The translations under genes and the position numbers were made by a program. Under the pieces are notes generated by a model, which was given only the letters and a program-made list of their open reading frames with translations, was not told where the DNA came from and ran no database searches. A stretch of 64,000 nucleotides of DNA from Allochromatium vinosum DSM 180 (lineage in GTDB: Bacteria; Pseudomonadota; Gammaproteobacteria; Chromatiales; Chromatiaceae), in contig NC_013851.1 of assembly GCF_000025485.1 (NCBI RefSeq), positions 2,027,501 through 2,091,500 on the forward strand, written 5' to 3'. Position 1 is the first letter of the stretch; each line of letters starts with the position of its first letter. Shown in pieces: positions 3,601 to 55,631 of this stretch.

Positions 3601-3646
3601 AAGTCTTGGTTCATCGGTTGTTCGGTGTAGGCGAATCAGTGACCCG

Positions 3647-4306: not shown

Positions 4307-4342
4307 GAAGACTCTCAGTGCTCGAACATGCCGTGCCCGGCG

Positions 4343-4813: not shown

Positions 4814-4834
4814 GATAAAAAAACGGGTTCGAGG

Positions 4835-13601: not shown

Positions 13602-15117
13602 CCTGGTTCTCGGTCAAGGCGCGTAGATGGGCTTCGAGGCGCGGCAAGAGCTCATGCGCGAAGCGTTCAAGACGTGCGCGCGCCGGTTCTTCGTCCAGCT
13701 CTATGGGCGTGTAGAGCGCGATTCGGGCCTGATTGAGACGCCCGCCACCGAGCAGGGTCAGGGCTTCGTGGAGCTTGGCCAGATGTGGACTGGCGGTCTG
13801 ATACCCGTTGGTCCAGTACCAGTCCCAGACCAGGAGCGACTGAGTCGTGGACTTCAGTCGCGCCTCCGTCACACGCACCGTCTCACCGCCAAGATCGACG
13901 GAGCGGCTGGTCTGCGCGACTGAACGCCAAACCGGATCCTTCTGGACGACCAGGACATGCTCCGAGTTGACCATCTCACCCGAATCCTGACCGTAGAGGG
14001 CCAGATAGACGCCAACCGGCTCATCTCCCTGTGCAAAGTCCTGCCGCCACGTCTCCGAGGCGTCCAGAAACTGGGGCGTCCAGGCGCTGAGATCCGTACC
14101 CACGGGAGACCAGCCCGCCAGTTCCGAGGCGATCTCAGGTCCAGTCCAGGCCCGATCGACCGCAGAGCGTGCCTCGATCCAGATCCCGAGCAGCGGCCAG
14201 ACGACGAGCAACAGCAGACCCAGTGTCAGCCCCAGCGTCTCGCGTACAGGAGCGGACGGGGTCGCGCGCATCTCGAAGGCCGGCGGCTCCGCTTCGGTCA
14301 AACTCGGACGCTCCGCATCGGACCACAGGTTACCGAATGCGAACAGCAGGAACATCACCAGTCCGAAGAACACCCAGCCATAGATCAGATGATCGACTCC
14401 CACAGCCAGACGCATATCGCTCAGATGGCCGATCATCACGATCAGATAGGCGCGCAGCCCATTGGCCAGGATAGGCGTGAGCGCGGCCAGCACGATGAAG
14501 AGCAGACGCCGCCACAGGGCGCGATAGTTCAGATAGGCATAGAGCACCCCGAGAAAGACCGAGGCGATGAGATAGCGGATGCCGCTACAGGCGGCGACCA
14601 CCGACCAGTCGCCGCTCGGGATACTAAAGAAAGTGCCTTCCCAATAGACCGGAATGCCCGTCAGACGCAGCAGGAAGACCGTGAAGGATGCGGTGAAGTC
14701 CATCAGGGGCGGAACCAGCCATTCCCCCATGGGCACGGCGAAGAGCAGAAACGCCAGCGGAAAGGCCAGATAACGCACCGCCGCCAGACCGAAGACCAGC
14801 CAGACGAGGATCGGAACCATGAGCACGGCGGCCAGTTGCTCGATCACCAGCACATCGACCAATCGCGCCAACAGCCAGACGAATCCGTTACCCGCCAGAA
14901 TGGGCAGGGCACGCCAGTCGGTTCCATACTGGAGCACGTGCAGTCCATGACGCTTGCGCCAGACCAGAAAGAGCACGATCGGCACGACGAGGAACCCATG
15001 GGTGAAAGTCTCGGAGCGCTCCCAAATGGCAACGATGCTCGCAAAACTCGGCCACAGGAACACCGACAGCAGCGTGAACGCTCCAAACCACCACAGCAGC
15101 CGTGTTTGCATCCGCAT
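13594..15117 (-). CDS. xrtA: Exosortase A fused to an EpsI domain
   Basis: The first 270 residues form a polytopic membrane domain with the exosortase catalytic triad: Cys177 in VVAACSGIRYL, Arg222 in NGLRAYLIV and His243 in VDHLIYGW. Exosortases are membrane cysteine transpeptidases thought to cleave and anchor proteins with a C-terminal PEP-CTERM signal. After a polar linker, a further membrane span at about 293-313 leads into an EpsI-like periplasmic domain (about 320-500), the usual XrtA partner fused here in one chain. A GAGGA site about 8 bases before the ATG at 15117 supports the start. No PEP-CTERM substrate protein is encoded in the window. Confidence 0.95.
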   Translation of the reverse strand: MRMQTRLLWWFGAFTLLSVFLWPSFASIVAIWERSETFTHGFLVVPIVLFLVWRKRHGLHVLQYGTDWRALPILAGNGFVWLLARLVDVLVIEQLAAVLMVPILVWLVFGLAAVRYLAFPLAFLLFAVPMGEWLVPPLMDFTASFTVFLLRLTGIPVYWEGTFFSIPSGDWSVVAACSGIRYLIASVFLGVLYAYLNYRALWRRLLFIVLAALTPILANGLRAYLIVMIGHLSDMRLAVGVDHLIYGWVFFGLVMFLLFAFGNLWSDAERPSLTEAEPPAFEMRATPSAPVRETLGLTLGLLLLVVWPLLGIWIEARSAVDRAWTGPEIASELAGWSPVGTDLSAWTPQFLDASETWRQDFAQGDEPVGVYLALYGQDSGEMVNSEHVLVVQKDPVWRSVAQTSRSVDLGGETVRVTEARLKSTTQSLLVWDWYWTNGYQTASPHLAKLHEALTLLGGGRLNQARIALYTPIELDEEPARARLERFAHELLPRLEAHLRALTENQDD

Positions 15118-20805: not shown

Positions 20806-22353
20806 TCAGGCCTGTCCCATGAGCATGGGCAACCCTTTGGCCACGACGATGAATCCAACCACTAAGCTTGCCGTCGCGGCCACGAAGGGAATCAGCATCA
20901 GGCGTTCCCGGCGTCGCTGCGCACTGGACAGAACGAGTCCGACACTTCCGAAGACTGGAAGCCCAGTCTCTTGATACAGGATGCGACGATCGTCATAGAT
21001 CGGGCGCACCAAATCGACGGCGAGTGCGGCTCCCATGCCGGCACCAAAGGCAAGCAAGAGCACAACGGCCGACAAGGCAAGCCGGTTGGGAGCGGATGGT
21101 TTGGATGGCACGAACGGTGGATCGACGACACGGAACTTGGCTCCCTCCACGGTTTTCTCGACTTCGGTCGAGAGCCTGGCCGACTCACGCCGTTTCAGCA
21201 ATTCATTGTGCTGCGCCGCGATCGTCGAATAATTCCGGGTCAATTGTTTGAGTTTGGCCTCAATCGTCGGGATGCTGTCGATCTTTTCGGTGAGTTGCTG
21301 GACTCGCTTGGAATAATCTTCCACACGCGCGGTCAGGGCTGCGACCTGAGCATCGGCCTCGCTGAGTGCCACGCGCAGATTGCCGTAAACAGTATCGGCG
21401 CGGACATTCGAAGCCAACTGTGATCCGCTGCTGCTCGCGGTCAACTGTCTGCGACTTTGCTCCTTCAACTCCTCGATCTGACGCCGAAGCTCGATCACGA
21501 CTGGATGTCGTTCGGTATATCGCAACAGCAGATCGTCGAGTTTTGACTGCATGGCCGTGACACGCGGATCCTCGACCTGCTGTTGCAGAGGCATCAGATC
21601 GAAATTGCTCTGGATCATCTGGTCTTCGTTTTCGATCTGATAGCTCAGCTCATCGCGCCGCCAGATCGCCTCGCGCAAGGCGAGCTCGGCATCCTTGAGT
21701 CCGGCCTTTGCCGCTTCGAGCGTGGAATAATAGTTGACCTGTTCCCCCGGAAGCACGCCGGCATTGTCACGCTTGAAATCCGCCAGCTCCTTCTCTGACT
21801 GCCGCAGGCGCGACTCATACTCGGCGATCTCCTGATCGAGAAAGCTATGCGCCGTCGTGGTCGCCGCCTGATCTCCAGTAAGCGCCTGCTCGATGAAAAC
21901 AGACACGACCGCCTGGACGACCTGCTTGGCACGCCCCGGATCACGGTGCTCGAAGGCAATGTTGTACAGCGAGGGATTGGCGCGATCACCACTGAGCTGG
22001 ATCTTATTACGCAACTCATCGAGCAGAAGCTCCTTGTCACGCTCGGTCCGGACATTCAGATCGAAATCGCTCATGCGAGCAATCCGTTCCAGGTTCGGGC
22101 GACTGAGCAGCATCCGGCTCATCAAGGACACCCGCTGCACGAGATCCGGTTGAATCGCCAGCCCTTGCAGTAAGGGTCGCAGAACAGAGTTCGTATCGAC
22201 GAATACCCTGGCCGAAGCCCGGTATTCGTCGGGCAGTTTGGAGACATAGAGCCAACCCGAGATGGCGATCAGCCAAGCCACCGCGACGGCCAGCCAGCGA
22301 TAGCGCCAGATGCCCCGGACATAGGAAAAAAGCTGCTGCAAGAGTTCATGCAT
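20806..22353 (-). CDS. Polysaccharide chain-length determinant (Wzz type)
   Basis: The 515-residue inner-membrane protein has an N-terminal membrane span (about 18-36, LAVAVAWLIAISGWLYV) followed by LPDEYRASARVFVDTNSVL, the Wzz signature. A long periplasmic coiled-coil region (about 190-390) follows, then a proline-rich approach to the second span (PFVPSKPSAPNRLALSAVVL). A final hydrophobic segment lies at the C-terminus (about 485-510). This layout fits the XrtA-associated chain-length family (TIGR03007, by recall). It lacks a kinase domain, which is supplied by the next gene. It lies 42 bases downstream of the export lipoprotein gene. Confidence 0.93.
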   Translation of the reverse strand: MHELLQQLFSYVRGIWRYRWLAVAVAWLIAISGWLYVSKLPDEYRASARVFVDTNSVLRPLLQGLAIQPDLVQRVSLMSRMLLSRPNLERIARMSDFDLNVRTERDKELLLDELRNKIQLSGDRANPSLYNIAFEHRDPGRAKQVVQAVVSVFIEQALTGDQAATTTAHSFLDQEIAEYESRLRQSEKELADFKRDNAGVLPGEQVNYYSTLEAAKAGLKDAELALREAIWRRDELSYQIENEDQMIQSNFDLMPLQQQVEDPRVTAMQSKLDDLLLRYTERHPVVIELRRQIEELKEQSRRQLTASSSGSQLASNVRADTVYGNLRVALSEADAQVAALTARVEDYSKRVQQLTEKIDSIPTIEAKLKQLTRNYSTIAAQHNELLKRRESARLSTEVEKTVEGAKFRVVDPPFVPSKPSAPNRLALSAVVLLLAFGAGMGAALAVDLVRPIYDDRRILYQETGLPVFGSVGLVLSSAQRRRERLMLIPFVAATASLVVGFIVVAKGLPMLMGQA

Positions 22354-35153: not shown

Positions 35154-36151
35154 CGTTGAGCAGCAGGTCCGTTAACCCCGGCGCGTCTTCGGTGAGAAGA
35201 TTGACCGACTCGCTCATGCCCGGTTGCGCTGGAGTCCAGCGATTGCACCACCGGCGCATCGAAAAAATGGAGACCACTTGCCACGAGTTGCTCGGCACCA
35301 GCGAGCAGATCGGTGGCGCGAATCCAGGTGAAACGAGTATTGCCCAATCGTCGTGCGAGCAATAGACGGTTGCGTTGCAGATGGTCGATCAGACGCGCCT
35401 CGCGGCGCAGCCGGTTGGCCTCTCGCGACAGGACACGGGTCGGGCAGTCGATACGGTTACCTTCTCGATCGATGACGGTCCCGGGCATGGGTTCCGGTTC
35501 GTACAGCGGCACGGCAAGCGTGTCCGCGAACCGGTCCTCGACATAATGGGTGAAGGTGATCGACTCGAAGCCGGTATCCACGCACAGGATGAGCGCATCG
35601 CGTTCGAGCAACCGGGAGAAGGGCGAATCCGGACCAAAGGGACGATCCGTCTGTTCGTGCCCAGCGATGAATTTCGCCGCGTCATGGCCCCAGGCAAGTA
35701 ATGGGTGCGTTGGGCTGAGGCTGCGCACCACGCCCTTGCCGCGCCGGAAGACCTCCGACAGCAGCCCCATGGCCGATGGACTGCGGCGCACGTCCATGGG
35801 CTTGCCGATGGCGAGGAATTCGGCCGAGCTTTGGTTTTGGTAAGTGAGGGAGGGCATGACGACGAGTCCCGACTCGCCGACCGATTCGCGCAGGGCGGCG
35901 CAAAACTGCGCGGGAGTACCTTGGAACCCATTGAGGGCGCGCCAGGAGGAATGGACCATCAGGGTATCACTCGCGCGCACGCCGATGCGGTCAAGAAACG
36001 CGCGTAGCGCACGCTCATCGTAGGCCAGCCAGTGGCGAATGACCCATCGCTTGAGGTTCTTCAGTGAGTTCGCGGGGATGTCCACGTCGGCGTCTTGCCC
36101 TATGTGTCCGATATGTGGGCTTGGTGCGAGAATGACGTTATCACGAGTCAC
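35150..36151 (-). CDS. AAC(3)-family N-acetyltransferase
   Basis: The 333-residue protein matches the aminoglycoside 3-N-acetyltransferase fold. Markers are LMVHSSWRALNGFQGTPAQF, VVMPSLTYQNQ, the region around FRRGKGVVRSLSPTHPLLAWG with the catalytic histidine, and CVDTGFESITFTHYVEDRF. In surface-polysaccharide clusters these proteins acetylate amino sugars, so antibiotic resistance is not implied. The GTG at 36151 overlaps the flippase stop (GTGA). The last 40 residues (after FFDAPVVQ) are arginine/serine-rich and look out of frame. A neighbouring frame ending at 35092 looks more protein-like, so a frameshift near 35230-35250 is possible. Confidence 0.82.
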   Translation of the reverse strand: MTRDNVILAPSPHIGHIGQDADVDIPANSLKNLKRWVIRHWLAYDERALRAFLDRIGVRASDTLMVHSSWRALNGFQGTPAQFCAALRESVGESGLVVMPSLTYQNQSSAEFLAIGKPMDVRRSPSAMGLLSEVFRRGKGVVRSLSPTHPLLAWGHDAAKFIAGHEQTDRPFGPDSPFSRLLERDALILCVDTGFESITFTHYVEDRFADTLAVPLYEPEPMPGTVIDREGNRIDCPTRVLSREANRLRREARLIDHLQRNRLLLARRLGNTRFTWIRATDLLAGAEQLVASGLHFFDAPVVQSLDSSATGHERVGQSSHRRRAGVNGPAAQR

Positions 36152-37635
36152 GCGAATTTTCGATCATCTTTTCGCCTTTTCATCTGCGCTGTCCGCACTT
36201 TGTCTAGGAGCCAGGATTCGGCTCCCGCTGGACAGCGCGACAGACGCCAGGCGAACAGAATGACGGCCAGGTAGACGAGGAAACCGACGAGGATCTTGAA
36301 CGCCAACAGGATGACGGGCGGCTGTTCACTCAGCGCATCGACAGCGACAATGGACAGGGCCATGAGCAAGGCCCCCAGCACCGGCCGGTAGATGACGGCG
36401 ATGAACTCCGCGAGCCTGAGCACGGGAAGCACCCTAAGCAGGAGCCAAATCGTCAAACCGACCGCAACGACAGCGGCAGTCAGGCGCAGGGCGGCGATCT
36501 CGATCGCCGAGCCGCCCGGACACAGCGCCAGCGCCAGGATGGCAAAGAGCATGACTTGAATCCAGATGAGTCCTGTCGCCTCCGCCAACCGGCCGAGCAC
36601 CAGCAACAGATAGCCGCTGGTGGCGGTCAACGCCTGGACGACCCCCATCAGGGCGAGCAGTTGCAGGAGTGGGACGGCCTCGTGCCATTGGTCCCCCAGC
36701 AGCACGGCGACCACCTCCCCGGCGACCAGCGCCAGACCAACGGCGGCGGGAATCGCTAGCAGGGTTTGCAGCCCCTGAGCGAGCAGAAACAGACGTTTGA
36801 GTTCGGGCGAATTCGTCCCAGCCTCGGCCAATGCCGGAAAGAGCGCGCGGTTCATCGGCGCCAACAGTTCGGCGGACGGCATGGTCGCGATCTCGTTGGC
36901 GAGGGTGTAGGCGCCCAAGGTGGAGGTTGGCGCCCATCGACCGACCAGGATGCGGTGCAGGTTGCTGAGCAGGAACTCACCAATGCCGCGCAGCAGTAGC
37001 CATTGCGAAACGCCCAGGATCTCACGGAGTTTCGCGAGACTGAGACGCGGGCGCATCGGATGCATCCAGTAGCTGAGTCCTACACCGATGCCCCGCGTGG
37101 CCAGGGTACCGATGACCAGCGCCCAGTAGGAGCGCAGGGTCCAGGCGGCGACCATGGTGATCAGGAAACCGGCGATGCGGCGTAGGAACAGGAAGCGGAA
37201 CTCGGCCCCGAACTGCATCGCTTTGTGAAAGTCGATGATGCCGATGTTTTCGAGGCCGGAGAGCAGCAGGGTGAAGGCCAGGATCCGCAGGACCAGCTCG
37301 ACCCGCGCATCCTGGAAATAATCCGCCGCCATGGGGGCGGCCAGGAACAGGATGAGGGTGGAGAGCGTGGTTTGGATGAGCCTCAGTGTCCAGGCCGTAT
37401 CGAAGTGGGCTTGGGTGGCGTCGCGGTTGCGGATTAGGGCGATGTTGACGCCGAGGTCGAGCAGCACGTCGGCCAGGGCGATGACCAGAGTGGCCATGGC
37501 GATGACGCCGATGTCGTCCGGCGCAAGCAACCGGGCCAGGATGATGGTACTGACCAGACCGATGAGCCGGTCGGTCCAGCGCATCGCGACCGTCAGGACG
37601 GTGCCGCGGGTGACACTCAGGCGCGCGAAGCTCAA
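36148..37635 (-). CDS. Oligosaccharide flippase (Wzx/MATE-like)
   Basis: The 495-residue protein has about twelve to fourteen membrane spans and the family opening RLIGLVSTIILARLLAPDDIGVIAMA. It has DVLLDLGVNIALIRN and a mid-protein LFPALAEAGTNSPELKRLFL block typical of Polysacc_synt proteins. It would flip the lipid-linked repeat unit to the periplasmic face. The longest form uses a TTG at 37633-37635, which keeps the conserved first span; an ATG at 37587 is an alternative. It is tightly packed between the acyltransferase gene (7 bases) and the AAC(3)-like gene (overlap). Confidence 0.9.
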   Translation of the reverse strand: MSFARLSVTRGTVLTVAMRWTDRLIGLVSTIILARLLAPDDIGVIAMATLVIALADVLLDLGVNIALIRNRDATQAHFDTAWTLRLIQTTLSTLILFLAAPMAADYFQDARVELVLRILAFTLLLSGLENIGIIDFHKAMQFGAEFRFLFLRRIAGFLITMVAAWTLRSYWALVIGTLATRGIGVGLSYWMHPMRPRLSLAKLREILGVSQWLLLRGIGEFLLSNLHRILVGRWAPTSTLGAYTLANEIATMPSAELLAPMNRALFPALAEAGTNSPELKRLFLLAQGLQTLLAIPAAVGLALVAGEVVAVLLGDQWHEAVPLLQLLALMGVVQALTATSGYLLLVLGRLAEATGLIWIQVMLFAILALALCPGGSAIEIAALRLTAAVVAVGLTIWLLLRVLPVLRLAEFIAVIYRPVLGALLMALSIVAVDALSEQPPVILLAFKILVGFLVYLAVILFAWRLSRCPAGAESWLLDKVRTAQMKRRKDDRKFA

Positions 37636-41867: not shown

Positions 41868-42125
41868 ATGGACATGATCAAGCAAGTCAAAGCGCTTTTT
41901 GCAAGCACCCTCCAACTCGGCAGCCGTGGCACGGATCTGGATGCCTCATCAACCCTCCTCGGCGCCATCCCTGAACTGGACTCCATGGCCGTCGTCAACC
42001 TTATCACCGCGATGGAGGAGCATTTCGGCTTCATCGTGGATGACGATGAAATCAGCGCTGACACTTTTGAAACGCTTGGATCGCTGGTGGCATTTGTCGA
42101 GCGGAAACTCGACGGCTCGGCATGA
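41868..42125 (+). CDS. Acyl carrier protein of the exosortase A locus
   Basis: The 85-residue acidic helical protein has the phosphopantetheine attachment site ELDSMAVVNLI with Ser39, plus the FGFIVDDDEIS segment seen in stand-alone acyl carrier proteins. It is clearly not the fatty-acid ACP by context, since it heads the XrtA acyl/amine operon. It presumably receives the acyl group activated by the ligase three genes downstream. Its stop overlaps the ATG of the next gene (42122-42125). An in-frame ATG at 41874 is an alternative start. Confidence 0.9.
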   Translation: MDMIKQVKALFASTLQLGSRGTDLDASSTLLGAIPELDSMAVVNLITAMEEHFGFIVDDDEISADTFETLGSLVAFVERKLDGSA

Positions 42126-42958
42126 CGGCTGACGGCGTCGAGATTACGCCTTTTTTCCTAGCCGGTGAACCCGGTCCGCTTTTTTGCATCCATTTTCATC
42201 CATTTCATGAACGCGTGCGTGGGCGCATACTTTATCTGCACCCATTCGCCGAAGAAATGCACAAATCCCGGCGCATGGCGGCCTTACAGGCGCGTCGGCT
42301 GGCAGCGGTTGGCTACGCGGTCCTGCAACTGGACCTCACAGGTTGCGGGGATAGCTGGGGTGATTTCGGCGATGCTCGCTGGAGCGGGTGGGTTCAGGAT
42401 GCCACTCGCGCGCTCCAGTGGCTGGATGCTGCGCACAGCGATCCTCCGCTCCTGCTCTGGGGCTTACGGCTGGGCGCGACCCTGGCCCTCAACCTGGCGG
42501 CGGGGGTGCCCGAAGTCGATGGAGTCATCCTCTGGCAACCCGTCACACACGGGGAACGTTTTCTCAATCAGTTTCTGCGCATCAAACTCGCCAGCGAGAT
42601 GCTGACCGAGGGACGGGCGCGGACGCGGACACGGGCGTTGAGAGAACGACTCAAAGCCGGCGAATCGGTCGAGGTCGGTGGCTATCGGCTGGCTGCGGAA
42701 CTGGCGGAATCTATCGGGACCTTGCAATTGGGTCAAATCCCGCCCCCGCGCAGAGTCGTTTGGACCGACATAGTGGCCGACTCACGGACTCCGCCCTCCC
42801 CGGCCAGCGAGCGCGTCATGCGCAATTGGCTCGAACAGGGATGCCAACTGCATTCGAGTCGCGTCACCGGCGAGCCGTTCTGGATCACCCAGGAGATCAC
42901 CGAGTGTCCAGCCTTGCTGGAAGTTACACTGGACGGCGTCGGATGGCTGCTGCGGTGA
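42122..42958 (+). CDS. Alpha/beta hydrolase, exosortase A-associated (hydrolase 2 type)
   Basis: The 278-residue protein has the alpha/beta hydrolase core. GRILYLHPFAEEMHKSRRM opens it, followed by VLQLDLTGCGDSWGDFGDA and the elbow segment LLLWGLRLGATLALNLA. In that elbow, the position of the usual GxSxG serine holds arginine (GLRLG). It matches the XrtA hydrolase 2 family (TIGR03101, by recall). The missing nucleophile suggests a non-hydrolytic or binding role, or that another residue acts. It is ATGA-coupled to the acyl carrier protein and GTGA-coupled to hydrolase 1. Confidence 0.88.
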   Translation: MTADGVEITPFFLAGEPGPLFCIHFHPFHERVRGRILYLHPFAEEMHKSRRMAALQARRLAAVGYAVLQLDLTGCGDSWGDFGDARWSGWVQDATRALQWLDAAHSDPPLLLWGLRLGATLALNLAAGVPEVDGVILWQPVTHGERFLNQFLRIKLASEMLTEGRARTRTRALRERLKAGESVEVGGYRLAAELAESIGTLQLGQIPPPRRVVWTDIVADSRTPPSPASERVMRNWLEQGCQLHSSRVTGEPFWITQEITECPALLEVTLDGVGWLLR

Positions 42959-43953: not shown

Positions 43954-45558
43954 ATGACAGAACGCGTTCAAGACCTCATCAACCGTCAAGCTGAGTGTTT
44001 GCCGACACATCCGGCGCTGCGCTCAGGTGGAATGGATCTATCTTATCAGGCACTGGCGGATGCCGTGCGGGATACCGCTGCACGCTATCTGGATTTGGGC
44101 CTCGGCCGAAGTGAACGGGTCGGGGTCTATCTGGAGAAGCGCCCGGAGACGGTCATCGCCCTATTTGGCGCCGCCACTGCCGGCGGTGTCTTCGTGCCGG
44201 TGAATCCACTGCTCAAGGCCGAGCAGGTCGCGCACATCCTGGCCGACTGCAATGTCCGTCTCCTCGTGACATCCGCCGAACGACTCGCGCTGCTGCGTCC
44301 CGTTTTGCCCCTCTGCCCGGATCTGCATGCCATTCTGGTAGTCGGCCAGATGCCGGAGGACACCGATTCCAGCCCGGTCAAACTGATCAGCTGGGACGCC
44401 GCACAGTCGTCATTCGGTCCAGGCACCGCCTTCAAGCCCCATCGCGTCATCGATTCTGATGTCGCGGCAATCCTCTACACCTCCGGTAGCACGGGCCGCC
44501 CCAAGGGCGTAGTGCTGTCACACCGCAATCTGGTCGCGGGCGCCGTCAGTGTCTCGACCTACCTGGAGAACAGCGCCCAGGATCGGATCCTATCGGTCTT
44601 GCCCCTGAGCTTTGACTATGGCCTGAACCAACTGACCACAGCCTTCCATGTCGGCGCCTGCGCCGTCCTGATGAATTATCTACTGCCGCGCGATGTCATC
44701 CGCACCGTCGCCCGCGAACGCATCACCGGCTTGGCCGCCGTACCGCCGCTCTGGATCCAGCTTGCCGAGCTGGACTGGCCGGAATCCGTCCATGAGCATC
44801 TGCGCTACATCACCAACTCCGGCGGTGCCATGCCCGCAGCAACCCTGGCAAGCCTGCGCGCCAAACTGCCAAACACCAAACCCTATCTCATGTACGGCCT
44901 GACCGAGGCCTTCCGTTCGACCTACCTCCCACCAGACGAAATCGACCAGCGCCCCGGCTCCATGGGCAAGGCCATCCCGAACGCCGAGATCCTGGTGGTG
45001 CGCGAGGACGGCAGCCCCTGCGCCCCCGGCGAACCGGGCGAACTGGTCCATCGCGGCGTCCATGTCTCATTAGGCTACTGGAATGATCCCCAAAAGACCT
45101 CCGAGCGCTTCAAGCCTCTACCCGGCCAATCCTCCGGCCTGCCCATCCCCGAGATCGCGGTCTGGTCCGGCGATACCGTCAAGATGGACGAAGATGGCTA
45201 TCTCTATTTCGTCGGACGCCGCGACGAGATGATCAAGACCTCGGGCTATCGGGTCAGCCCAACCGAAGTCGAGGAAGTCGTCTACGCCACCCAGCGCGTC
45301 GCCGAGGTCGCGGCTGTTGGCGTAGCCCATCCGGTCCTGGGACAGGCGGTCGTCCTGATAACCTATGCCCCTGATCACAACGATGAAGCCGGCGCCGCGA
45401 TCCTGACCGAATGTCAGAAGCGCCTCCCAGCCTTCATGGTTCCGGCGCGGATCATCGTCCGCCATGAACCCCTGCCACGCAATCCCAACGGCAAGATCGA
45501 CCGTAAGCGGCTGGGGTTAGAGTTGGAAGATCTGTTTCAGGATGGAGTCTCTGCGTGA
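43954..45558 (+). CDS. Acyl-CoA/ACP ligase (AMP-forming), exosortase A-associated
   Basis: The 534-residue ANL-superfamily enzyme has the P-loop LYTSGSTGRPKGVVLSHRNL, the adenylate motif YLMYGLTEAFRSTY, the hinge region DGYLYFVGRRDEMIKTSGYRVSP and the catalytic lysine in NPNGKIDRKRLG. It should activate a carboxylic acid as the acyl-adenylate and pass it to the acyl carrier protein of this operon. It fits the family found in XrtA loci (TIGR03098, by recall). It starts 87 bases after hydrolase 1 and its stop overlaps the GTG of the decarboxylase gene. Confidence 0.93.
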   Translation: MTERVQDLINRQAECLPTHPALRSGGMDLSYQALADAVRDTAARYLDLGLGRSERVGVYLEKRPETVIALFGAATAGGVFVPVNPLLKAEQVAHILADCNVRLLVTSAERLALLRPVLPLCPDLHAILVVGQMPEDTDSSPVKLISWDAAQSSFGPGTAFKPHRVIDSDVAAILYTSGSTGRPKGVVLSHRNLVAGAVSVSTYLENSAQDRILSVLPLSFDYGLNQLTTAFHVGACAVLMNYLLPRDVIRTVARERITGLAAVPPLWIQLAELDWPESVHEHLRYITNSGGAMPAATLASLRAKLPNTKPYLMYGLTEAFRSTYLPPDEIDQRPGSMGKAIPNAEILVVREDGSPCAPGEPGELVHRGVHVSLGYWNDPQKTSERFKPLPGQSSGLPIPEIAVWSGDTVKMDEDGYLYFVGRRDEMIKTSGYRVSPTEVEEVVYATQRVAEVAAVGVAHPVLGQAVVLITYAPDHNDEAGAAILTECQKRLPAFMVPARIIVRHEPLPRNPNGKIDRKRLGLELEDLFQDGVSA

Positions 45559-46787
45559 ACAGCCCTCGTCATACGACACCACCGCTCTTTCCGGTTGCAG
45601 ACAACCAGCTCGTCATCGGTGCCCTCCCCATTGCCCGCTTGGCCGAGCGGGTCGGACGCACCCCCTTCTATGCCTATGACCGCGCTCTGATCAGCGCGCG
45701 CGTCGCCCAGCTACGCCAAGCCCTGCCGGATGACATCCATCTGCATTACGCGATCAAGGCCAACCCCATGCCGGCTGTGGTGCAACATCTGGCCGGACTA
45801 GTCGATGGGTTTGATGTCGCCTCCGGCGGCGAATTGAAGACCGCGCTCGACACATCCATGCCGCCCCATCAAATCAGCTTCGCCGGGCCGGCCAAGACTC
45901 CCGGCGAGCTGCGTCAGGCCATTGCCGCCGGCATCGTGATCAATCTGGAATCCGAACGCGAGTTGCGGGCGGCGGTTCAGGCCGGCGAAGCGCTGGGTAT
46001 CCGGCCCAGGGTCGCCGTGCGCGTCAATCCGGATTTCGAACTGAAATCCGCTGGCATGAAGATGAGCGGCGGCCCCAAACAGTTCGGCATCGATGCCGAG
46101 CGAGTACCGGCCGTGCTGGCCGAGATGAAGTGCCTGGATCTGGAGTTCATCGGTTTCCATATTTTCTCCGGCGCCCAGAATCTGCGCGCCGAGGCGATCT
46201 CCGAGGCCCAGGAGAAAACGCTCGAACTGGCCATGCGTCTGGCCTTGGACGTGCCCTCCCCCGTGCGTGCGCTCAATCTCGGCGGTGGTTTCGGCATCCC
46301 CTACTTCCCCGGCGAGCCCCCCCTGGATCTCGTCGCTGTGGGTGAACGGTTGTCCGAATTGTTGCCGGCCGCCCGGCGCGCGCTACCGGATACGGAGCTG
46401 ATCATCGAACTCGGGCGCTTCTTCGTCGGCGAGGCCGGGGTGTATGTCTGCCGGGTCGTCGAGCGCAAGGTCTCGCGCGGTCAGGTATTTCTGGTCACCG
46501 ATGGCGGGCTGCACCATCATCTGGCCGCCTCGGGAAACTTCGGGCAGGTCATTCGCAAGAATTATCCGGTGCTGGTCGCCAATCGGGTCGAATCGGACGG
46601 TGACCCCGAAACGGCGTCCGTGGTCGGCCCGCTCTGCACCCCACTCGACCTGCTGGCTGATAGAATGCCGCTCGGTCACGCCCGCGAAGGCGATCTGGTC
46701 GCCGTCATGCAGTCAGGAGCCTATGGCTTGACGGCCAGCCCGACAGCCTTCCTGGGACACCCAACGGCGGTTGAGGTGCTTGTCTGA
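45555..46787 (+). CDS. PLP-dependent decarboxylase, exosortase A-associated
   Basis: The 410-residue protein belongs to the ornithine/diaminopimelate decarboxylase fold III class. The PLP lysine lies in HLHYAIKANPMPAVV, followed by GFDVASGGELKTA, IGFHIFSGAQNL, the glycine-rich ALNLGGGFGIPY and the dimer-interface cysteine in GPLCTPLDLLADRM. It matches the XrtA-locus decarboxylase family (TIGR03099, by recall). It may produce an amine or decarboxylate an amino acid used as an acyl or amide donor. It starts with GTG at 45555, overlapping the ligase stop, and ends the rightward unit 50 bases before the convergent fusion gene. Confidence 0.93.
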   Translation: MNSPRHTTPPLFPVADNQLVIGALPIARLAERVGRTPFYAYDRALISARVAQLRQALPDDIHLHYAIKANPMPAVVQHLAGLVDGFDVASGGELKTALDTSMPPHQISFAGPAKTPGELRQAIAAGIVINLESERELRAAVQAGEALGIRPRVAVRVNPDFELKSAGMKMSGGPKQFGIDAERVPAVLAEMKCLDLEFIGFHIFSGAQNLRAEAISEAQEKTLELAMRLALDVPSPVRALNLGGGFGIPYFPGEPPLDLVAVGERLSELLPAARRALPDTELIIELGRFFVGEAGVYVCRVVERKVSRGQVFLVTDGGLHHHLAASGNFGQVIRKNYPVLVANRVESDGDPETASVVGPLCTPLDLLADRMPLGHAREGDLVAVMQSGAYGLTASPTAFLGHPTAVEVLV

Positions 46788-46836: not shown

Positions 46837-49800
46837 TCACGGATGCGACCAGATGGAGATCCGTCCAGCCTGAGCGCCAAGGCTGAACTCGATGATTCCA
46901 CTCTTCGTGACCGGCACAGTTTCCTGTCGGTCTCCAAAGTCGACTTCAAAGCGATCACCGATGGACACACCAGCAATCAGCAACCGCGTCTGCCGGCCCG
47001 GAACCTCCAGCCGGACCGGCTCTCTGAAATGGCCGAGGTCGAAGAGCAGCAGGCTGTTATCCGTATAGGCCGCAAGCGCCTTACCGCTGTTCAAGCGTAA
47101 TGGCTCGACAGGCGTCGGATTCGACCCACGCAAACTCGGACTCAAAGCGACCAGGAACCGATCCAGCCGATTCGGTTGCGTGGGCTGGATCTCGATCCGC
47201 CAGAGTCCATTGTCGAACCAACGGGCCTTCAGCGAGTCCTGGCCAAAATTGCTGCCATTGAGCACCTGATCGTCGCCATCGGCCTCGACATAGTACTCAT
47301 ACCCCTCCCCGCCCACGAGGCGAATCACCGCTTCTTCGGGTGCCAGCCGCACCAGATCCAGCCGGCCGCGTCCATTGACCATCGACAGGTGCTCGGACGG
47401 ACTTTCCAGGATGCCAGCGTTCTCGCTCCCCAACGTGACGCGCAGATCCGGGATATCCGGCCGTTGCGGCAGGTGCAGCAACCACTTTTTGGTATAACCG
47501 GGATCGGTCGACTCGACCGTGTCGAACACGAAGACGCGATCCTCGTCGAGTAGATAGAGTAGCGCGCGCGTGACCTGCTCCACCTTGCCGCCTCGGTCCT
47601 GGGTGTCGTAGTCGCTGTTGTCATAGGCCCCGGTGAGATCCGCCTCGACATACAACAGACGGCCGTCGATGCGCTGATAGGTCCGGATCACACCCCCTTC
47701 GTAGTGCCGCCCCTGGCCGATCTGGGCCAGCCAATCCGCAACGCCCTGCACCGAACTTCCGGTCGGCATGACGATCCGCTGTCCGCCGTCGATGACGTTG
47801 CGTTCGACGAGCGGCGATGGCCGGATATGCTCATTCGGACGCAGCACCAATAGAGAATTGCGCGAGACCGTGCGGATACCGTAGTAGAGTCGGTTGGGCG
47901 CGGCGATGTCCCCCCGATAGGTGGCATTGCTGATCGCCAGTGGCGCGCCTTTGAAGAGCGTTAAATGACCGGCGTCGTAGTGACCGTGATGCGTGAGGCT
48001 ATGTCCCGCGCGCAGGGTCAACATTGTGTCGTCCGCTCCCCAGCCGCTTCTCACCACGATCTGGTTGAACGCCTTCGGCCCAAACCACTCCGCGCTCGGC
48101 AGCAAGGCCTTCAAGCCATCCAGTGTGCCTGGCGGGACACGCGCCAGCGGCAACACCGTCGGATCGTTGAAGAGCTGGAAACCCCAGCGATAGTCGCGAT
48201 AATAACTCTCGACTCCATGTCTGGCCTCCAGCCAGCGCGAGTAGCTCGATAGCACCCGACTGCGCGTGAGCTGGACGATGAGATCGATGACCCGGCGCGT
48301 CTCGTCCTTGAGGTCGACCCTGGGGCCTTCGTCGCCCGTCAGTTCGACGCGCCCATCCGGGCGCGTCATGTAGAGCGTCCACAACCCAACACGCTCGAGC
48401 GCCTGACGCATCTCAGACGCCGCCTGCGTATCCTCGAACCCATTGAGATAGGCGGCAGCAGCCAGGGCCAACATAAAGGCGCGCGAATTGATCCAGTAGT
48501 TATAGCCTTCGGGCCAGCCCTCTGAGAGCCTGAGCGCGGCCATGGCTTCGCGGAAATGGGCCTGAGTACGGCGAATCAGCTCCTGCTGCTCCGGACTCTC
48601 GGCATCGAGCGCGGCAGCGATCACCCAGGCCGTCGACGCCAGAGTCGCACGACCATGCCACAGCGATGGACCGCGACCATCGAGCTGCTCCAGATAGCTG
48701 GGCAGTAGCGCGGCCAACCGGGCCTGAACCCGGCGGCGCGTCGCCTCAGGCAGATCGGGATGGAGCGCGAGCCAGTCATAGGCCCAGGCCAGCTCCCAGC
48801 CATTGCCATAGTCCCCGTAGTCCCCTGGCGGACTCGGCTCAAAGGTGCTCAGTGCCTCCAGTCCACGGCGCCCGGCCCCCTCGTCACCCGTGAGGATCCA
48901 GCAAACCGCCAGCCGCAGTGCCCCGGAACCACCACAGGGTGGATAGAGCTTTGGATCGAGGCCAACAGACGCGTAGCGCTCCTGGCGCGTCCTGATCGCC
49001 GGCGCCAGACCGCGACCATTCCAGTCGGCGAGTTCGGGCAACAGAATGCGTGGATGCCTGGGACGCTGGCGTCCATCCAGAGCGACACCGGAAAAACGCG
49101 GCGGCGGACGCAACCAGGGTTCGAGCCATGGAAGCTCGATCCCGTAACGCTCCAACACCTTGCCCACCAATTGCCGCGTATCGACGTCGTAAAAACGCAT
49201 CGTCTGAGCAAGCGCCATGAGCGCGAGGCCCGCGCCAAGCATCACGACCAAGATCATGAGCAGACGTTTAGGTTGACGAGTGATGGATCCGGCTTGAGCG
49301 ACCTGAACCGGACGCAAGGCGGGCCGTGCAATGGACGTGTGCCCCAAGGCCAGTAAGGTGGTCAGCCAGAAAAGAGTGCCAACGCGCGGTGAATCGATAA
49401 TGGTGCCAAAGACACCGACGGCATAGAAACCCGCCAGAGAGACAAGCAGCGCCGAGGCGAATGGATCCATCCCGGCTGCCGAGCGGGCGGTTTTCGTCAG
49501 CGCCGCCAGAGCAATCAGGCTAAACAGGACGAGTCCGACGACTCCGAGTTCGAAATAGACATGGAGCCACAGGTTCTTGATATGCCAGGGCAGATGGTCG
49601 AAGTCCGAGTACAGAAACCAGCGGTCGAAGCCCCGCGCGAAATCACCATTGTCGATCCGCTCCGTCCCAGCCGCATCCAGGATCGAGATCGCGTCGATGT
49701 CGATCCAGCGACCCGCCGAACGATTGGCGATCTCGAGCGTCAGCCAACCCTCCTGAGCGCCTTTGAATGATCCCAGCCCCTTCGAGTCGAAGGTCTGGTC

Positions 49801-51555
49801 GATGCGCGTCCAGTCCGAGCCATTCGGCTGAATTCTTTGGTTCAAGGTCGCACAGGTTGGATTCCATTCGTTCGCCGGAACCAGATGCCGATGACAGATC
49901 CGCAACTCCAGTTGAATGGGGCTGGGATCTTCATCCGTTTTGATTGATAGTGACAGCCTGTAGGTTTGTCGGGGTTCCAGCGACAAACGCTGGCCGATCC
50001 GAATATTGGGTCCGCCGTACAATCTAAGCGAGCGACGCGCGCCATCGTCCTCGATCCTGAAGCCAGCGACTGTCGCTGGATCCTGGTGCATCAGGTAATA
50101 GGTTTGCGGAAAACGCCCGACGCCCTGCCCCAAGAGCTGAGTACCTGGATCGCGATCCATGATGGAGATAGCCGTCCGCCAGTGCTCCAGGCGATGCTGA
50201 AAATCCTGCGCAACCGTTTCCAGACGCGTATCCATGCGATAGCCGAACAGACTGAGCGTCAGCAGAAACAGAATGCCCGCAAACACGGCCAGGATCATCC
50301 CCGCCTGCTGGAGTGCCAGCCTTCCTGCCAGACGACGTCCGATCCAGACACCGATGAGTACGGCGGGCGGAATACAGAGCATGGCTTGCCACACAGCCGG
50401 CAAGGGCAGAAATCCATAGTTCCGATCGAGGATCGTCCAGGTACAGAGCAGGGTCAAGGCGGCGGCCAGGATTGCCAGCGCCGCCAGACGCCAGCGCCCC
50501 CAGGTCGCTGCAACTGGGATCATCATCGCGAGCGCGCCGCCCAGGAGGGCCGTCAGGGTGTAGGCCAGGGCCACGGAACCGCCGCTGCGAAAGGCGATGT
50601 AGGACAGGCCGAGCATCGTCAGCCCGGTCGCTGCCACGAGCGGGATGTCGCGCGCTCGCAGCGTCGCACGTTGCTGAAACGCCAGCGTCAGGAATGCAAC
50701 GGCCATGGCGACGAAGACGCCAAGATAGACGCCGCGCGAAAACGTCACGAAAGACGTGTAGAGCAGACCGAGCAGCGCGATTCCAGGCAGAACCGCCCCC
50801 AAGCGTCCACGCGCGCTCAGAAAAGCGGCCGCAACGAACGGCAGAGTCAGCAGCAGCCAGCCATCGATGGCCGTGCCGCCCGTGTTCATGTCCGCAAACA
50901 AGGCCGTGACCCGATACGGAGTCGAGAAATCGAGCAGCGCGCGGATGGGGGTATAGATGTTGGTCCAGAACAGAAGGGTCGAATAGATGCCACGCTCCCA
51001 GAGCACGACGGCCAATACAGCCAGCGCGGCGAGCGACATCCCCAGTAACAGAAAGCGTCGCGCACGCACGGCATCGAGCCGCTCCTCGACCACCCAGGCC
51101 GGATAGAGCAGCACGGCCCAAAACAACCCCTTCGAGACCCGTAAAGCGTTGAAAGAGCTGTAATAGCCCGCGAAGCTATTGGCGTCGGCCTCAGGCCAGG
51201 GATAGAGCGTGCGGAACAGCGACAGACCCACGAGTCCGACGAAGAGGACGAGCAGCACCCTCGACAGCGGCCGCATCGCGCCAAACGAAGGCACATAGCG
51301 ATCGCGCAACAGATAGACCGCGAGCGTGACGAGCACCACAGCATCGAACTCGTCGAGATAGATCCGCCCCGTCCAGGGACGCAGATCCAGCACCGGCAAC
51401 AGCAGTGGCAGCAGGATCAGCCAGAGCGCCGGGCGCCAGAGCAACAGACCGAAATAGACGCCCACCCCCAGCAGCAACGGCCAGCGGGCGAATGGGATAT
51501 CGTGCAGGATCCAGATCCCGAAACCGAGCGGGACGAGACCAAGCACTCGGTTCAC
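46837..51555 (-). CDS. O-antigen-ligase-like membrane protein fused to a heparinase II/III-like lyase
   Basis: This single frame encodes 1572 residues. Residues 1 to about 745 form a polytopic O-antigen ligase/polymerase-type domain with RLEHWRTAISIM and LGQGVGRFPQTYY before the large periplasmic loop, and PWHIKNLWLHVYFELGVVG after it. A jelly-roll-like insertion (about 495-645) lies within that loop. A membrane anchor (about 766-784) follows. Residues 815 to 1572 form a heparinase II/III-like polysaccharide lyase: an alpha/alpha barrel with EGYNYWINSRAF and a beta domain with LTHHGHYDAGHLTLFKG. The GTG at 51555 overlaps the amidotransferase stop as GTGA. Expected role: polymerise or transfer the polysaccharide and cleave it on the periplasmic side. 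Fusion of the two activities is inferred from the frame alone. Confidence 0.9.
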   Translation of the reverse strand: MNRVLGLVPLGFGIWILHDIPFARWPLLLGVGVYFGLLLWRPALWLILLPLLLPVLDLRPWTGRIYLDEFDAVVLVTLAVYLLRDRYVPSFGAMRPLSRVLLVLFVGLVGLSLFRTLYPWPEADANSFAGYYSSFNALRVSKGLFWAVLLYPAWVVEERLDAVRARRFLLLGMSLAALAVLAVVLWERGIYSTLLFWTNIYTPIRALLDFSTPYRVTALFADMNTGGTAIDGWLLLTLPFVAAAFLSARGRLGAVLPGIALLGLLYTSFVTFSRGVYLGVFVAMAVAFLTLAFQQRATLRARDIPLVAATGLTMLGLSYIAFRSGGSVALAYTLTALLGGALAMMIPVAATWGRWRLAALAILAAALTLLCTWTILDRNYGFLPLPAVWQAMLCIPPAVLIGVWIGRRLAGRLALQQAGMILAVFAGILFLLTLSLFGYRMDTRLETVAQDFQHRLEHWRTAISIMDRDPGTQLLGQGVGRFPQTYYLMHQDPATVAGFRIEDDGARRSLRLYGGPNIRIGQRLSLEPRQTYRLSLSIKTDEDPSPIQLELRICHRHLVPANEWNPTCATLNQRIQPNGSDWTRIDQTFDSKGLGSFKGAQEGWLTLEIANRSAGRWIDIDAISILDAAGTERIDNGDFARGFDRWFLYSDFDHLPWHIKNLWLHVYFELGVVGLVLFSLIALAALTKTARSAAGMDPFASALLVSLAGFYAVGVFGTIIDSPRVGTLFWLTTLLALGHTSIARPALRPVQVAQAGSITRQPKRLLMILVVMLGAGLALMALAQTMRFYDVDTRQLVGKVLERYGIELPWLEPWLRPPPRFSGVALDGRQRPRHPRILLPELADWNGRGLAPAIRTRQERYASVGLDPKLYPPCGGSGALRLAVCWILTGDEGAGRRGLEALSTFEPSPPGDYGDYGNGWELAWAYDWLALHPDLPEATRRRVQARLAALLPSYLEQLDGRGPSLWHGRATLASTAWVIAAALDAESPEQQELIRRTQAHFREAMAALRLSEGWPEGYNYWINSRAFMLALAAAAYLNGFEDTQAASEMRQALERVGLWTLYMTRPDGRVELTGDEGPRVDLKDETRRVIDLIVQLTRSRVLSSYSRWLEARHGVESYYRDYRWGFQLFNDPTVLPLARVPPGTLDGLKALLPSAEWFGPKAFNQIVVRSGWGADDTMLTLRAGHSLTHHGHYDAGHLTLFKGAPLAISNATYRGDIAAPNRLYYGIRTVSRNSLLVLRPNEHIRPSPLVERNVIDGGQRIVMPTGSSVQGVADWLAQIGQGRHYEGGVIRTYQRIDGRLLYVEADLTGAYDNSDYDTQDRGGKVEQVTRALLYLLDEDRVFVFDTVESTDPGYTKKWLLHLPQRPDIPDLRVTLGSENAGILESPSEHLSMVNGRGRLDLVRLAPEEAVIRLVGGEGYEYYVEADGDDQVLNGSNFGQDSLKARWFDNGLWRIEIQPTQPNRLDRFLVALSPSLRGSNPTPVEPLRLNSGKALAAYTDNSLLLFDLGHFREPVRLEVPGRQTRLLIAGVSIGDRFEVDFGDRQETVPVTKSGIIEFSLGAQAGRISIWSHP

Positions 51556-53375
51556 TTCGCCACCCACTCCTCGAGCATCAGCATCATCCAGATCATCTTG
51601 CCGAAATAGGTCGCGTGCAGGCTCTGATGATCGGACTGGATCCGGGCGATATAGTCCGGCCGCAACCAGCCGCGCCGACTAAGATCCGCCAGCCGCCCGC
51701 GCACATGATCGGCGAGCGCCCGGTCGTCCCTGAGCCAGATCCCGAACGGCAACCCAAAGCCATGCTTGGATTTGGTGAGGATCGGCCTGGGCAGATAGTC
51801 CCAGAGCGCGCGCTTGAAGAACCAGCGCAGATAGTTCCCCTTCACCTTCCAGTCCGGCGGCACCTGACCGGAGAACTCGACCAGCGCGTCGTCGATCAGC
51901 GGATAACGAACCTCGACGCCGGCCGCCTCGGTCATGGCCGAGACCTTGCGCAGATCGTTGTCGGCCAGGGTGAACTTGAGATCCAGATGCAGCATACGGT
52001 TGATGAAATGCCGGCTGTCGGCGCGCTCATAGGGATCGCGCAGCAGGACCAGCGGTTGACCGGGATCGACCTGGGCCAGGAACTCGGGCGTGAACATGGC
52101 CTCCAGTGGCTGACGATGGAAGAAGTTGTAGGCCTCCATCCGATCTGGCAAGGGCACATTGGCCTGACGCACATAGCTCTTGAGTTTGCGCGTCGGCATC
52201 ACCCGGTCGACACCGGGAAGCGCGACGAACGGCTCGATGAGTCCGCCACGGACCCAGCCGGGGATCCGTCCGTAGAACTCGAAGATCTTCTGCTTGGCAT
52301 AGCGCTCGTTGCCACCGAGGATTTCGTCGCCGCCGTCGCCGCCGAGCATGACCTGATAGCCGTCATCGGCGGCCAGCTTGGCGCACAGATAGGCCGAGAC
52401 GGCCGATTCGTTGGCGAACGGCTCGTCGTACTGCCGGGCGACGAGCGGAATGATGTCCAGGACATCGCGGGGAGTCAGATAGTATTCGCGCGCGTCCAGC
52501 CCGAAATGGCGCGCCGCGATCCGCGCGTATTCCATCTCGTCGAAGCCTTCGGCCTCGAAACCGATCGAATAGGTCCGCGCCGGCTTGCCCTGGATCTCGG
52601 TGAGCAGACCGGCGATGGTGGAGCTGTCGGTCCCGCCCGAGAGGAAGGCCGAAACCTCATCGGAGCCGCGTGCCCGCTCGACGCCGTCGCGCAGTAACTG
52701 TCTGAAATAGCGGGCCTGTTCCTCGAAATCGTGCCTTGGCTCGTCACGATAGGTCAGATGCCAGTAGAATCCACGTTCGATGTGCCCATTGCGCCAATGG
52801 AGCCGCTGCGCGGGCAGCAACTTCTCGACGCCCTGGAAAATGGTTCCAGGCGCAGGCACCATGGTGAAATAGAGATAATTGAAGAGACCCTGCGGATCGA
52901 GATCGGCCTCGACCTCGGGATGGGCGGCAACCAGATCGGCGCGATTGGAGAATACGAGGCTGGCACCGGTCTGGGCAAAGGCCAGGGTTTCGATACCGAG
53001 GCGATCGATGGCGAGCAGCGCCTCACGCCGCGGCGTATCGACGATGGCCAGGGCAAAGCTGCCCTGAATGGATTTGGGCGTGTCGGCGCCCCGCTCGCGC
53101 CAGAGACTCAGGACGCGCGTGGCGGCCTCCTCGCCCGATTGGAGCGGCTCGGAAAACTGCGGACGGCCGGAGATGAGTGCCAGCACACCCTCGCGCTCGG
53201 CCAGGTGGCACAGTGTACCCGTGGCGGCGACCAGCCCGGTGGCGGCAAGGCGGACCTCCAGTCCACTGCCGGTCCGGCCACGTTGGCCCATGATCGACTC
53301 CAGGACTGTGCGCCACGCCATGTCTGGCGCCGGCTCGGGAGTCATCCAGCCACAAAAGTCCCGCATCGTCTTCAT
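51552..53375 (-). CDS. Asparagine-synthetase-like amidotransferase with degenerate glutaminase domain
   Basis: The 607-residue protein has an intact synthetase half: PP-loop FLSGGTDSSTIAGLL, LGGDGGDEILGGNERY and a C-terminal TKSKHGFGLPFGIWLR. The N-terminal half lines up with the class II glutaminase, but the initiator-adjacent cysteine is absent (it starts MKTMRDFCGWM). The RGPDEGG and YNGEIYN motifs of the first amidotransferase are also missing. It probably uses free ammonia or an amine, such as the product of the decarboxylase, as nucleophile; that is inference. A strong GGAGG site precedes the ATG at 53375. The gene is divergent from the zinc-ribbon/Sel1 gene. Confidence 0.9.
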   Translation of the reverse strand: MKTMRDFCGWMTPEPAPDMAWRTVLESIMGQRGRTGSGLEVRLAATGLVAATGTLCHLAEREGVLALISGRPQFSEPLQSGEEAATRVLSLWRERGADTPKSIQGSFALAIVDTPRREALLAIDRLGIETLAFAQTGASLVFSNRADLVAAHPEVEADLDPQGLFNYLYFTMVPAPGTIFQGVEKLLPAQRLHWRNGHIERGFYWHLTYRDEPRHDFEEQARYFRQLLRDGVERARGSDEVSAFLSGGTDSSTIAGLLTEIQGKPARTYSIGFEAEGFDEMEYARIAARHFGLDAREYYLTPRDVLDIIPLVARQYDEPFANESAVSAYLCAKLAADDGYQVMLGGDGGDEILGGNERYAKQKIFEFYGRIPGWVRGGLIEPFVALPGVDRVMPTRKLKSYVRQANVPLPDRMEAYNFFHRQPLEAMFTPEFLAQVDPGQPLVLLRDPYERADSRHFINRMLHLDLKFTLADNDLRKVSAMTEAAGVEVRYPLIDDALVEFSGQVPPDWKVKGNYLRWFFKRALWDYLPRPILTKSKHGFGLPFGIWLRDDRALADHVRGRLADLSRRGWLRPDYIARIQSDHQSLHATYFGKMIWMMLMLEEWVAK

Positions 53376-55617: not shown

Positions 55618-55631
55618 ACGCGGGCACCACG

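Follow-up and report, generated by a model that had tools for sequence, protein, structure and literature searches.

The protein analysed here combines features of two known kinds of enzymes. The WaaL/Wzy_C (PF04932) and TIGR03097 proteins are, like its first half, polytopic, with an SRG motif in a helix, a large loop preceding the final three helices and a conserved His after the loop; WaaL-type enzymes use one Arg and one His. Heparinase II (PL21) and the PL15 oligoalginate lyase share with its second half a His/Tyr/His trio and a two-domain layout. AlgL, PelA, PgaB and BcsZ are polymer-cutting enzymes encoded with the machinery making the same polymer, just as the cutter described here is encoded beside polymer-making machinery. 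To our knowledge, all four belong to synthase-dependent pathways, and none of them is joined to a ligase of the WaaL/Wzy type. In the usual account of Wzx/Wzy-type pathways, Wzz-like proteins determine the chain length.

The association of VanZ-1 with WaaL-like enzymes and exopolysaccharide genes has already been published in the lipocone paper, parts of which also describe VanZ fused to various extracellular domains including the beta-helix (PMC12419801). In the main text of that paper, the word 'heparinase' and words starting with 'lyase' are absent, and no ligase–lyase fusion was found in the parts consulted. Likewise, the words 'heparinase', 'lyase' and 'ligase' do not occur in PMC1569441, nor do 'heparinase' and 'lyase' in PMC11340318 and PMC9850573. 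The sequence-only reading that preceded this analysis knew of no described ligase–lyase fusion. This was borne out among the matches listed from 5.39 million open-access papers, the coverage of which leaves most subscription journals outside. Both halves are of known kinds, as is the VanZ link, and the ligase–lyase combination is new among the open-access matches listed.

The fusion gene and its locus

The window, i.e., the whole 64,000-nucleotide stretch of Allochromatium vinosum DSM 180 DNA that was analysed, contains a single gene encoding both halves (Table 1). The sequence-only reading had described one unbroken frame of 1572 codons at 46837..51555, with the strand unnamed. The frame is indeed single and unbroken, and it lies on the minus strand; the plus-strand frame from 46837 is interrupted by many stops. 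The boundary given at 51555 corresponds to a second in-frame GTG located four codons inside the first, and the frame extends beyond it to 51567. No stop is present in the window frame near 49150–49300, where a break had been named beforehand as an observation that would speak against a fusion.

Table 1. Features of the fusion gene and of the surrounding locus (positions in the window)
Feature	Position	Strand	Remarks
Fusion gene	46837..51567	(-)	1576 codons; GTG start at 51567, stop 46837-46839; frame open throughout
Ligase half, N-terminal membrane part	50068..51567	(-)	residues 1-500; hydropathy, alignment of 12 ligases, model
Predicted beta-sandwich insert in the large loop	49606..50067	(-)	residues 501-654; profile match, model, alignment
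Ligase half, last three membrane helices, post-loop	49330..49605	(-)	invariant Trp661-His662 at helix start
Linker: fourth post-loop membrane helix and anchor segment	49078..49329	(-)	predicted helix at about residues 769-787
Heparinase II/III-like lyase: helical domain followed by beta domain	46840..49077	(-)	residues 831-1576
His971	48655..48657	(-)	aligns with catalytic His311 of PL15 lyase 3a0o
Tyr1024	48496..48498	(-)	aligns with catalytic Tyr365 of 3a0o
His1194	47986..47988	(-)	aligns with His531 of 3a0o
Asn-synthase-like amidotransferase	51552..53375	(-)	directly upstream, 16-base overlap with fusion start
Decarboxylase, exosortase A system-associated	45555..46787	(+)	TIGR03099 above cut-off
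Acyl-CoA ligase, exosortase A system-associated	43954..45558	(+)	TIGR03098 above cut-off
Hydrolase 2, exosortase A system-associated	42122..42958	(+)	TIGR03101 above cut-off
Wzx-type flippase, MOP family	36148..37635	(-)	under the cut-offs of the matched models
XrtA-system polysaccharide chain length determinant	20806..22353	(-)	TIGR03007 above cut-off
Exosortase A (XrtA)	13594..15117	(-)	TIGR03109 above cut-off

An alignment of the window protein with those of three other Chromatiaceae is gap-free across the junction (residues 746–830). The intact fusion was found in eight assemblies, the window's included; those outside the four aligned Chromatiaceae are Thiobacillus UBA3361, Motiliproteus N1D-Bin_8, Sedimenticola selenatireducens and the genome G010. 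Because the frame is open in all eight, neither chance nor sequencing error explains it. The idea that an assembly or sequencing artefact had joined two genes is refuted by these assemblies, and its chances are negligible. The fusion of a ligase and a lyase in one polypeptide is therefore confirmed.

Besides the genes of Table 1, the window encodes a TIGR03016 outer-membrane protein, a FemAB protein, PrsK, PrsR, glycosyltransferases and sugar-modifying enzymes. The models TIGR03109, 03007, 03016, 03019, 02915, 02916, 03098, 03099 and 03101 all scored above their cut-offs, and by this family membership a large exopolysaccharide locus of the XrtA/PEP-CTERM type lies in the window. In Allochromatium palmeri, the genes for the amidotransferase, the fusion, the decarboxylase and the acyl-CoA ligase stand in the same order. 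UDP-sugar dehydrogenases (PF03721, the sole uronate-supply family searched) are encoded in the genome more than 400 kb away and none in the window. We propose that the fusion is an inner-membrane make-and-cut unit of this XrtA-type locus, in which chain transfer or growth would be coupled to trimming or release, and we put the probability of this reading at about 0.47.

The ligase half, the lyase half and the linker

The ligase half comprises residues 1–500 and 655–746. The prediction of a polytopic half of the ligase or polymerase type agreed with the hydropathy helices, the structural model and a weak Wzy_C match. The residues Glu191, Arg192, Arg219, Arg278 (in TFSRG), Arg459, His462, Trp463 and His662 are invariant in the 12 aligned ligases. 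In the predicted helices, the half has the WaaL/Wzy-type layout, with a large loop, Arg278 before it and His662 after it. In contrast to described members of the Wzy_C family, it scores under the PF04932 cut-off of 31.7 bits (16.6 bits for the whole protein, 17.8 bits for the ligase half alone; 25.1–28.2 bits for four relatives in its family). It also differs from the TIGR03097 proteins (cut-off 188.1 bits), as this model had no match in the ligase half at E 0.1 and none in the genome at E 0.001. Comparison of the ligase profile with four TIGR03097 members nevertheless aligned 52 columns around the SRG motif (hhalign probability 73%, E 3e-5). When the PDB was searched with the profile of alignment A5, no structure of WaaL or Wzy was matched at E values of 1 or below. 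The AlphaFold2 model of the half was of moderate quality (mean pLDDT 73, pTM 0.78).

A further difference from both families, besides the C-terminal enzyme, is an insert of approximately 150 residues in the large loop. It lies within a gap of about 250 residues between predicted helices that is common to nearly all ligases examined. The same moderate model has strands at 503–654, which suggests a beta-sandwich in the loop, and Cys558 and Cys572 are invariant in the 12 ligases. The insert profile matched the 168-residue chain 4mgq (E 8e-6), which is labelled as glycosyl hydrolase family 10 and which we take to be a carbohydrate-binding module; Pfam CBM_4_9_1 matched weakly (E 0.23). From these matches and the model, the insert appears to resemble a carbohydrate-binding module. 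This sandwich domain had been absent from the earlier reading.

In the lyase half, the motif HHGHYDAGH stands at residues 1193–1201, as had been noted before. The earlier description of a complete two-domain lyase is supported by the AlphaFold2 model (mean pLDDT 88.9, pTM 0.91), which consists mainly of helices up to model residue 369 and mainly of strands after it. This order is that expected of a helical toroid followed by a beta-sheet domain. The lyase profile matched heparinase II (2fuq, E 2.7e-40) and the PL15 lyase 3a0o (E 7.6e-10) in the PDB. His971, Tyr1024 and His1194 are invariant in the 38-row alignment A4, window included. Their counterparts His311, Tyr365 and His531 of 3a0o are given as catalytic in one source (Table 4 of PMC12088678); the relevant passage of another names only His311 and Tyr365 as catalytic (PMC11921355).

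The PF07940 Hepar_II_III_C cut-off of 24 bits was missed by the window half (16.9 bits), and the whole protein had no match at E 0.01. Two standalone relatives pass it (L034 with 24.1 and L050 with 38.2 bits) and one fails (L038, 18.7 bits). Compared with the PL21 and PL15 lyases, the window lyase is predicted to be membrane-anchored, lies in a synthesis locus, is fused to a ligase and scores far under the HepB equivalog NF045571 (77.6 bits against a cut-off of 600). Taken together, the C-terminal half looks like a catalytically intact lyase.

Heparinase folds and beta-helix folds also include epimerases, such as dermatan sulfate epimerase and AlgG. Since both of these fold types, which also occur as C-terminal partners of the ligase, host both chemistries with C5 proton abstraction in common, the C-terminal domain could instead be a uronate C5-epimerase or a chain binder that does not cut. 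We regard this as quite improbable, because the conserved trio matches that of the PL15 and PL21 lyases and the domain's nearest relatives with solved structures are lyases as well.

Between the halves, the predicted linker helix bears out the membrane anchor proposed earlier, and the anchor segment can be aligned with the N-terminus of standalone lyases. All ten fusions checked have a predicted linker helix, which is weak in L020 (mean 1.28). Three post-loop helices plus the linker helix were seen in nine of the ten, that of L015 lying beyond the listed range. The fourth post-loop helix is missing from L131, the one unfused ligase at this setting; at a stricter setting, full-length unfused ligases have two or three post-loop helices. 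By this count of predicted helices, the extra helix would thus bring the lyase and the sandwich to the same side of the membrane. The ratio of non-synonymous to synonymous codon differences is 1.2–1.8 for the linker, 0.54–0.58 for the lyase and 0.36–1.0 for the ligase segments; by this measure, constraint is weaker on the linker than on the domains, as for a hinge. The anchor charges of standalone lyases fit an N-inside orientation in 10 of 14 cases, with four ties. The anchors of heparinase-type and beta-helix fusions are similar at 4.5–7.1 bits, which is suggestive at best of a common anchor sequence.

Distribution, exchanged partners and trees

The GTDB species genomes were scanned with the lyase alignment, which gave 41 loci. 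Six of them are fused, four have a separate ligase gene nearby (L019, L022, L043 and L047, the two genes of L047 being arranged in tandem and sharing a frame) and 31 are without such a ligase in the locus DNA. The eight intact fusions are those of the six fused loci, the window and G010. In 19 of the 31 loci, one or more neighbouring genes are relatives of those for XrtA, FemAB, the decarboxylase, the acyl-CoA ligase, the hydrolases or the amidotransferases in the window; in this count the hydrolases and amidotransferases are not XrtA-specific, several loci are short and one match of 23% identity is excluded. Among five candidate ORFs scanned, TIGR03097 ligases were found less than 2 kb from the lyase gene in L036, L041, L046 and L052, and the remaining ORF was unrelated. 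An ORF of L023 (1535–4102), taken for a ligase by its helix spacing, was rejected as an FtsX-type permease.

Within the family Chromatiaceae, the lyase matched at E up to 0.001 in 17 of 210 genomes (below 1e-50 in 10 of these) and the ligase occurred in 37 (E up to 1e-20). The sample of the class contained the ligase in 13 of 369 genomes (E up to 1e-20) and the lyase in 17 (E up to 1e-40). As judged by frame length and 12 opened loci, only the window's own genome among these 17 has the lyase fused to this ligase. Of the 37 family ligase genomes, 34 contain an exosortase of the XrtA type (E up to 1e-40), compared with 82 of the 173 others, and so do 10 of the 10 family genomes with a strong lyase match; in both counts the genomes are related and not independent.

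A second Wzy_C-type protein, TIGR03097 (E up to 1e-20), is encoded in 31 of the 37 family ligase genomes. The absence of TIGR03097 from the window genome had suggested that the fusion replaces it. This idea was rejected, because both occur in A. palmeri (G001) and in four further fused genomes, G203, G201, G010 and G122.

The draft genome G119 has a broken lyase half beside an open ligase frame and may therefore be able to do without the lyase. AlgL clears stray chains in alginate synthesis, and the lyase could likewise destroy stray periplasmic chains, the fusion merely placing it where strays arise. The G119 gene and the frequent standalone lyases with their own anchor fit such clean-up. We consider it unlikely, since clean-up alone predicts neither the direct link to a ligase nor the exchange of cargo at the same C-terminus.

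This exchange was seen in 49 ligase rows, of which 23 carry an N-terminal VanZ, nine a heparinase-type, three a beta-helix-type and one a different C-terminal domain, and 13 carry none. Here, VanZ was called from its resemblance to a single example, that of L022 (Pfam VanZ E 5e-23). One of the nine heparinase-fused rows, L168 (G225), has its lyase cut short with the remainder on another contig and is not among the eight intact fusions, and one of the 13 partnerless rows is G119, beside its broken lyase. The rows cover 30 of the 37 family ligase genomes, all 12 further genomes of the class (with 13 loci) and five other loci. The figure of 30 takes G203, G201 and G122, whose frames are equally long, as L013, L015 and L029, and G001 and G019 as L014 and L022; the seven family genomes outside the rows are G105, G110, G111, G169, G172, G182 and G209, and for five of these only shorter loci were seen. 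The frame of L135 is partial, and L170 starts at a contig start.

Among the exchanged domains, only that of G058 was called lyase-like by search. It scored 25.2 bits against PF14592 chondroitinase B (cut-off 24), although the gene in a longer frame reached 23.2 bits, under the cut-off, and it matched a solved PL6 alginate lyase (E 3e-5). The C-terminal domain of G063, a genome of the same genus with a close ligase, is without significant similarity to that of G058. The domains of G063 and G343 had no Pfam match even at E 10 and no useful PDB match. From repeats read by eye, the G063 domain and its 85%-identical G059 relative look beta-helix-like. A jelly-roll guess for the G343 domain was dropped, as no match supports it.

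In 10 genomes of the class survey, lyases lie in frames of 1157–1260 codons. VanZ and Hepar_II_III_C were both above the Pfam cut-offs in all eight ORFs scanned whole (eight of the 12 opened loci), VanZ being below its cut-off in L182 and L183, where shorter frames were scanned. Similarity to one VanZ example detected it in 5 of 13 lyase ORFs and not in L191 (cut by a contig end) and L192; Pfam found VanZ in the others scanned. The VanZ–lyase gene of L190 adjoins exosortase and amidotransferase homologues. All three pairwise fusions of VanZ, ligase and lyase are thus present as single predicted proteins. By the usual logic of gene fusions, the three would therefore act in one process. The lipocone paper proposes an action of VanZ on the head groups of lipid carriers (PMC12419801), which fits a carrier-linked process.

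In the ligase tree, heparinase, beta-helix, other-domain, partnerless and broken types are mixed in a 10-row clade with SH-aLRT 100. A single clade of heparinase-fused rows was rejected by the ligase tree (p 1.8e-126) and by the lyase tree (p 5e-6), all trees being quick trees without bootstrap. The lyase tree needed five changes with 39 rows and three with 35 rows, the smaller set omitting L050, L044 and L052 (long branches) and L026 (cut by a contig end, label void). A single origin of the fusion without later splitting is thus rejected by both trees. As the fused rows are not one clade, it appears that joining was repeated or that an old fusion was split more than once.

Such easy or repeatedly undone joining would also suit a fusion of convenience, in which neighbouring genes were joined, the ligase serves as an anchor for the lyase and the halves act on different chains. 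The four loci with unfused neighbours point the same way, and so does the anchor helix of the fusion, which is still of the kind that belongs to the lyase. Still, standalone lyases are already anchored, so little would be gained, and the PL6-like partner and the VanZ–lyase pair recur; we do not expect this explanation to hold.

Proposed working of the fusion

In the make-and-cut unit that we favour, the N-terminal half, a WaaL/Wzy-like transferase by its family, would take a lipid-linked glycan at the periplasmic face of the inner membrane, and the loop sandwich, given its resemblance, may hold the sugar chain. One extra membrane helix, counted from predicted helices, would return the polypeptide to the periplasm. 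There, beta-elimination by the heparinase-fold lyase with its conserved His/Tyr/His trio would cut that same uronate-containing chain, which would couple trimming or release of the chain to its transfer or growth. In some relatives the C-terminal domain differs although the ligase is kept, as would be the case if the cutter had to suit the polymer of each locus.

The proposal is favoured by the eight intact fusions, the exchange of partners within one clade, the VanZ fusions, the predicted linker helices, the invariant catalytic residues, the lyase loci with a fused or nearby ligase and the co-occurrence with XrtA. Against it stand the 31 of 41 lyase loci without a ligase, the many ligases without a lyase, the distance of the PF03721 dehydrogenases, the broken lyase half of G119, the lyase-like call by search for just one exchanged domain (G058) and the scores of both halves of the window protein under the Pfam cut-offs. 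The sequence-only reading had already suggested that chain growth and cleavage are coupled. The exchanged C-terminal partners and the VanZ–lyase fusions speak for a link between the handling of the chain and its cutting, which supports this part of the suggestion; the view of the N-terminal half as a polymerase is weakened by the second Wzy_C-type protein in most family ligase genomes.

Tentatively, and with more doubt than conviction, we also consider the ligase family a general socket. Its C-terminus would take non-homologous polysaccharide cutters and its N-terminus VanZ, which also joins the lyase, giving a modular lipid-carrier, transfer and cutting machine of XrtA loci. The point of cleavage in a growing or carrier-bound chain would be set by the cutter, perhaps with transfer of the cut chain to a new acceptor (cut-and-ligate), and the cutter would be swapped as the polymer changes.

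If true, a ligase with its own exchangeable cutter and a VanZ module would be a second, enzymatic way to set chain length or release. The little-understood polymer loci of the XrtA/PEP-CTERM type would gain a testable enzyme, and the substrate of the lyase should reveal the polymer. It would also predict which uncharacterised lyases act on self-made and which on foreign polysaccharide.

Arrangements of the ligase and lyase halves in relatives

The ligase and lyase halves, which form a single protein in the window, were seen in other arrangements among the relatives. In a Halieaceae locus (L047, 1044-4619), the genes for the two enzymes stand in tandem and share one frame, being separated only by a stop, in a metagenome-assembled genome with a coverage of 2.1 according to the contig name. 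This tandem is like the state just before or just after fusion. In the draft genome G119 (L167, 1-4932), stops break the lyase half and the adjoining ligase frame is open over 674 codons; this is possibly a natural instance of the ligase without the lyase.

The ligase family of the window also has another C-terminal partner. At locus L153 of genome G343 (2898-6182), the ligase carries a C-terminal domain of ~400 residues, for which the Pfam and PDB searches gave no Pfam match and no useful PDB match.

A putative HtrA-like protease is encoded at the loci of Sedimenticola HyVt-446 and genome G010 (L004 588-1382 and L003 4975-5733). In the former, the ligase and the lyase have genes of their own and the protease gene sits between them; in the latter, it comes just after the fusion gene.

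VanZ–lyase proteins

In the class genomes (loci L181 and L184-L190), the VanZ domain is joined directly to a heparinase II/III-type lyase in single proteins of 1157-1256 codons, and both domains exceed the Pfam cut-offs in all eight of the scanned reading frames. Immediately upstream of the VanZ–lyase gene of G545 (L184) lies another lyase gene, with N-terminal helices.

Gene content of the EPS locus

The product of the acetyltransferase-like gene is probably a sugar-modifying acyltransferase.

Features in and beside the XrtA exopolysaccharide (EPS) locus
Feature	Window position	Remark
Asparagine-synthase-like amidotransferase	10516-12402	One of two different ones in one XrtA locus
GH127-like protein	29579-30718	In EPS locus; Pfam 33.4 bits, cut-off 24.9
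Aminoglycoside 3-N-acetyltransferase-like protein	35150-36151	Between glycan genes; 84.4 bits, far below cut-off of 270
IS481 transposase	39966-40946	Inside EPS locus
Asparagine-synthase-like amidotransferase	51552-53375	The other of the two
GGDEF diguanylate-cyclase protein	55167-57563	Just outside EPS locus
Copper-type P-ATPase	57560-60043	Just outside EPS locus

The profile search of the window's genome did not find TIGR03097, the second, exosortase-A-associated ligase. A. palmeri has TIGR03097 ~21 kb from its own fusion gene. The EPS locus of the window may have lost TIGR03097 through rearrangement.
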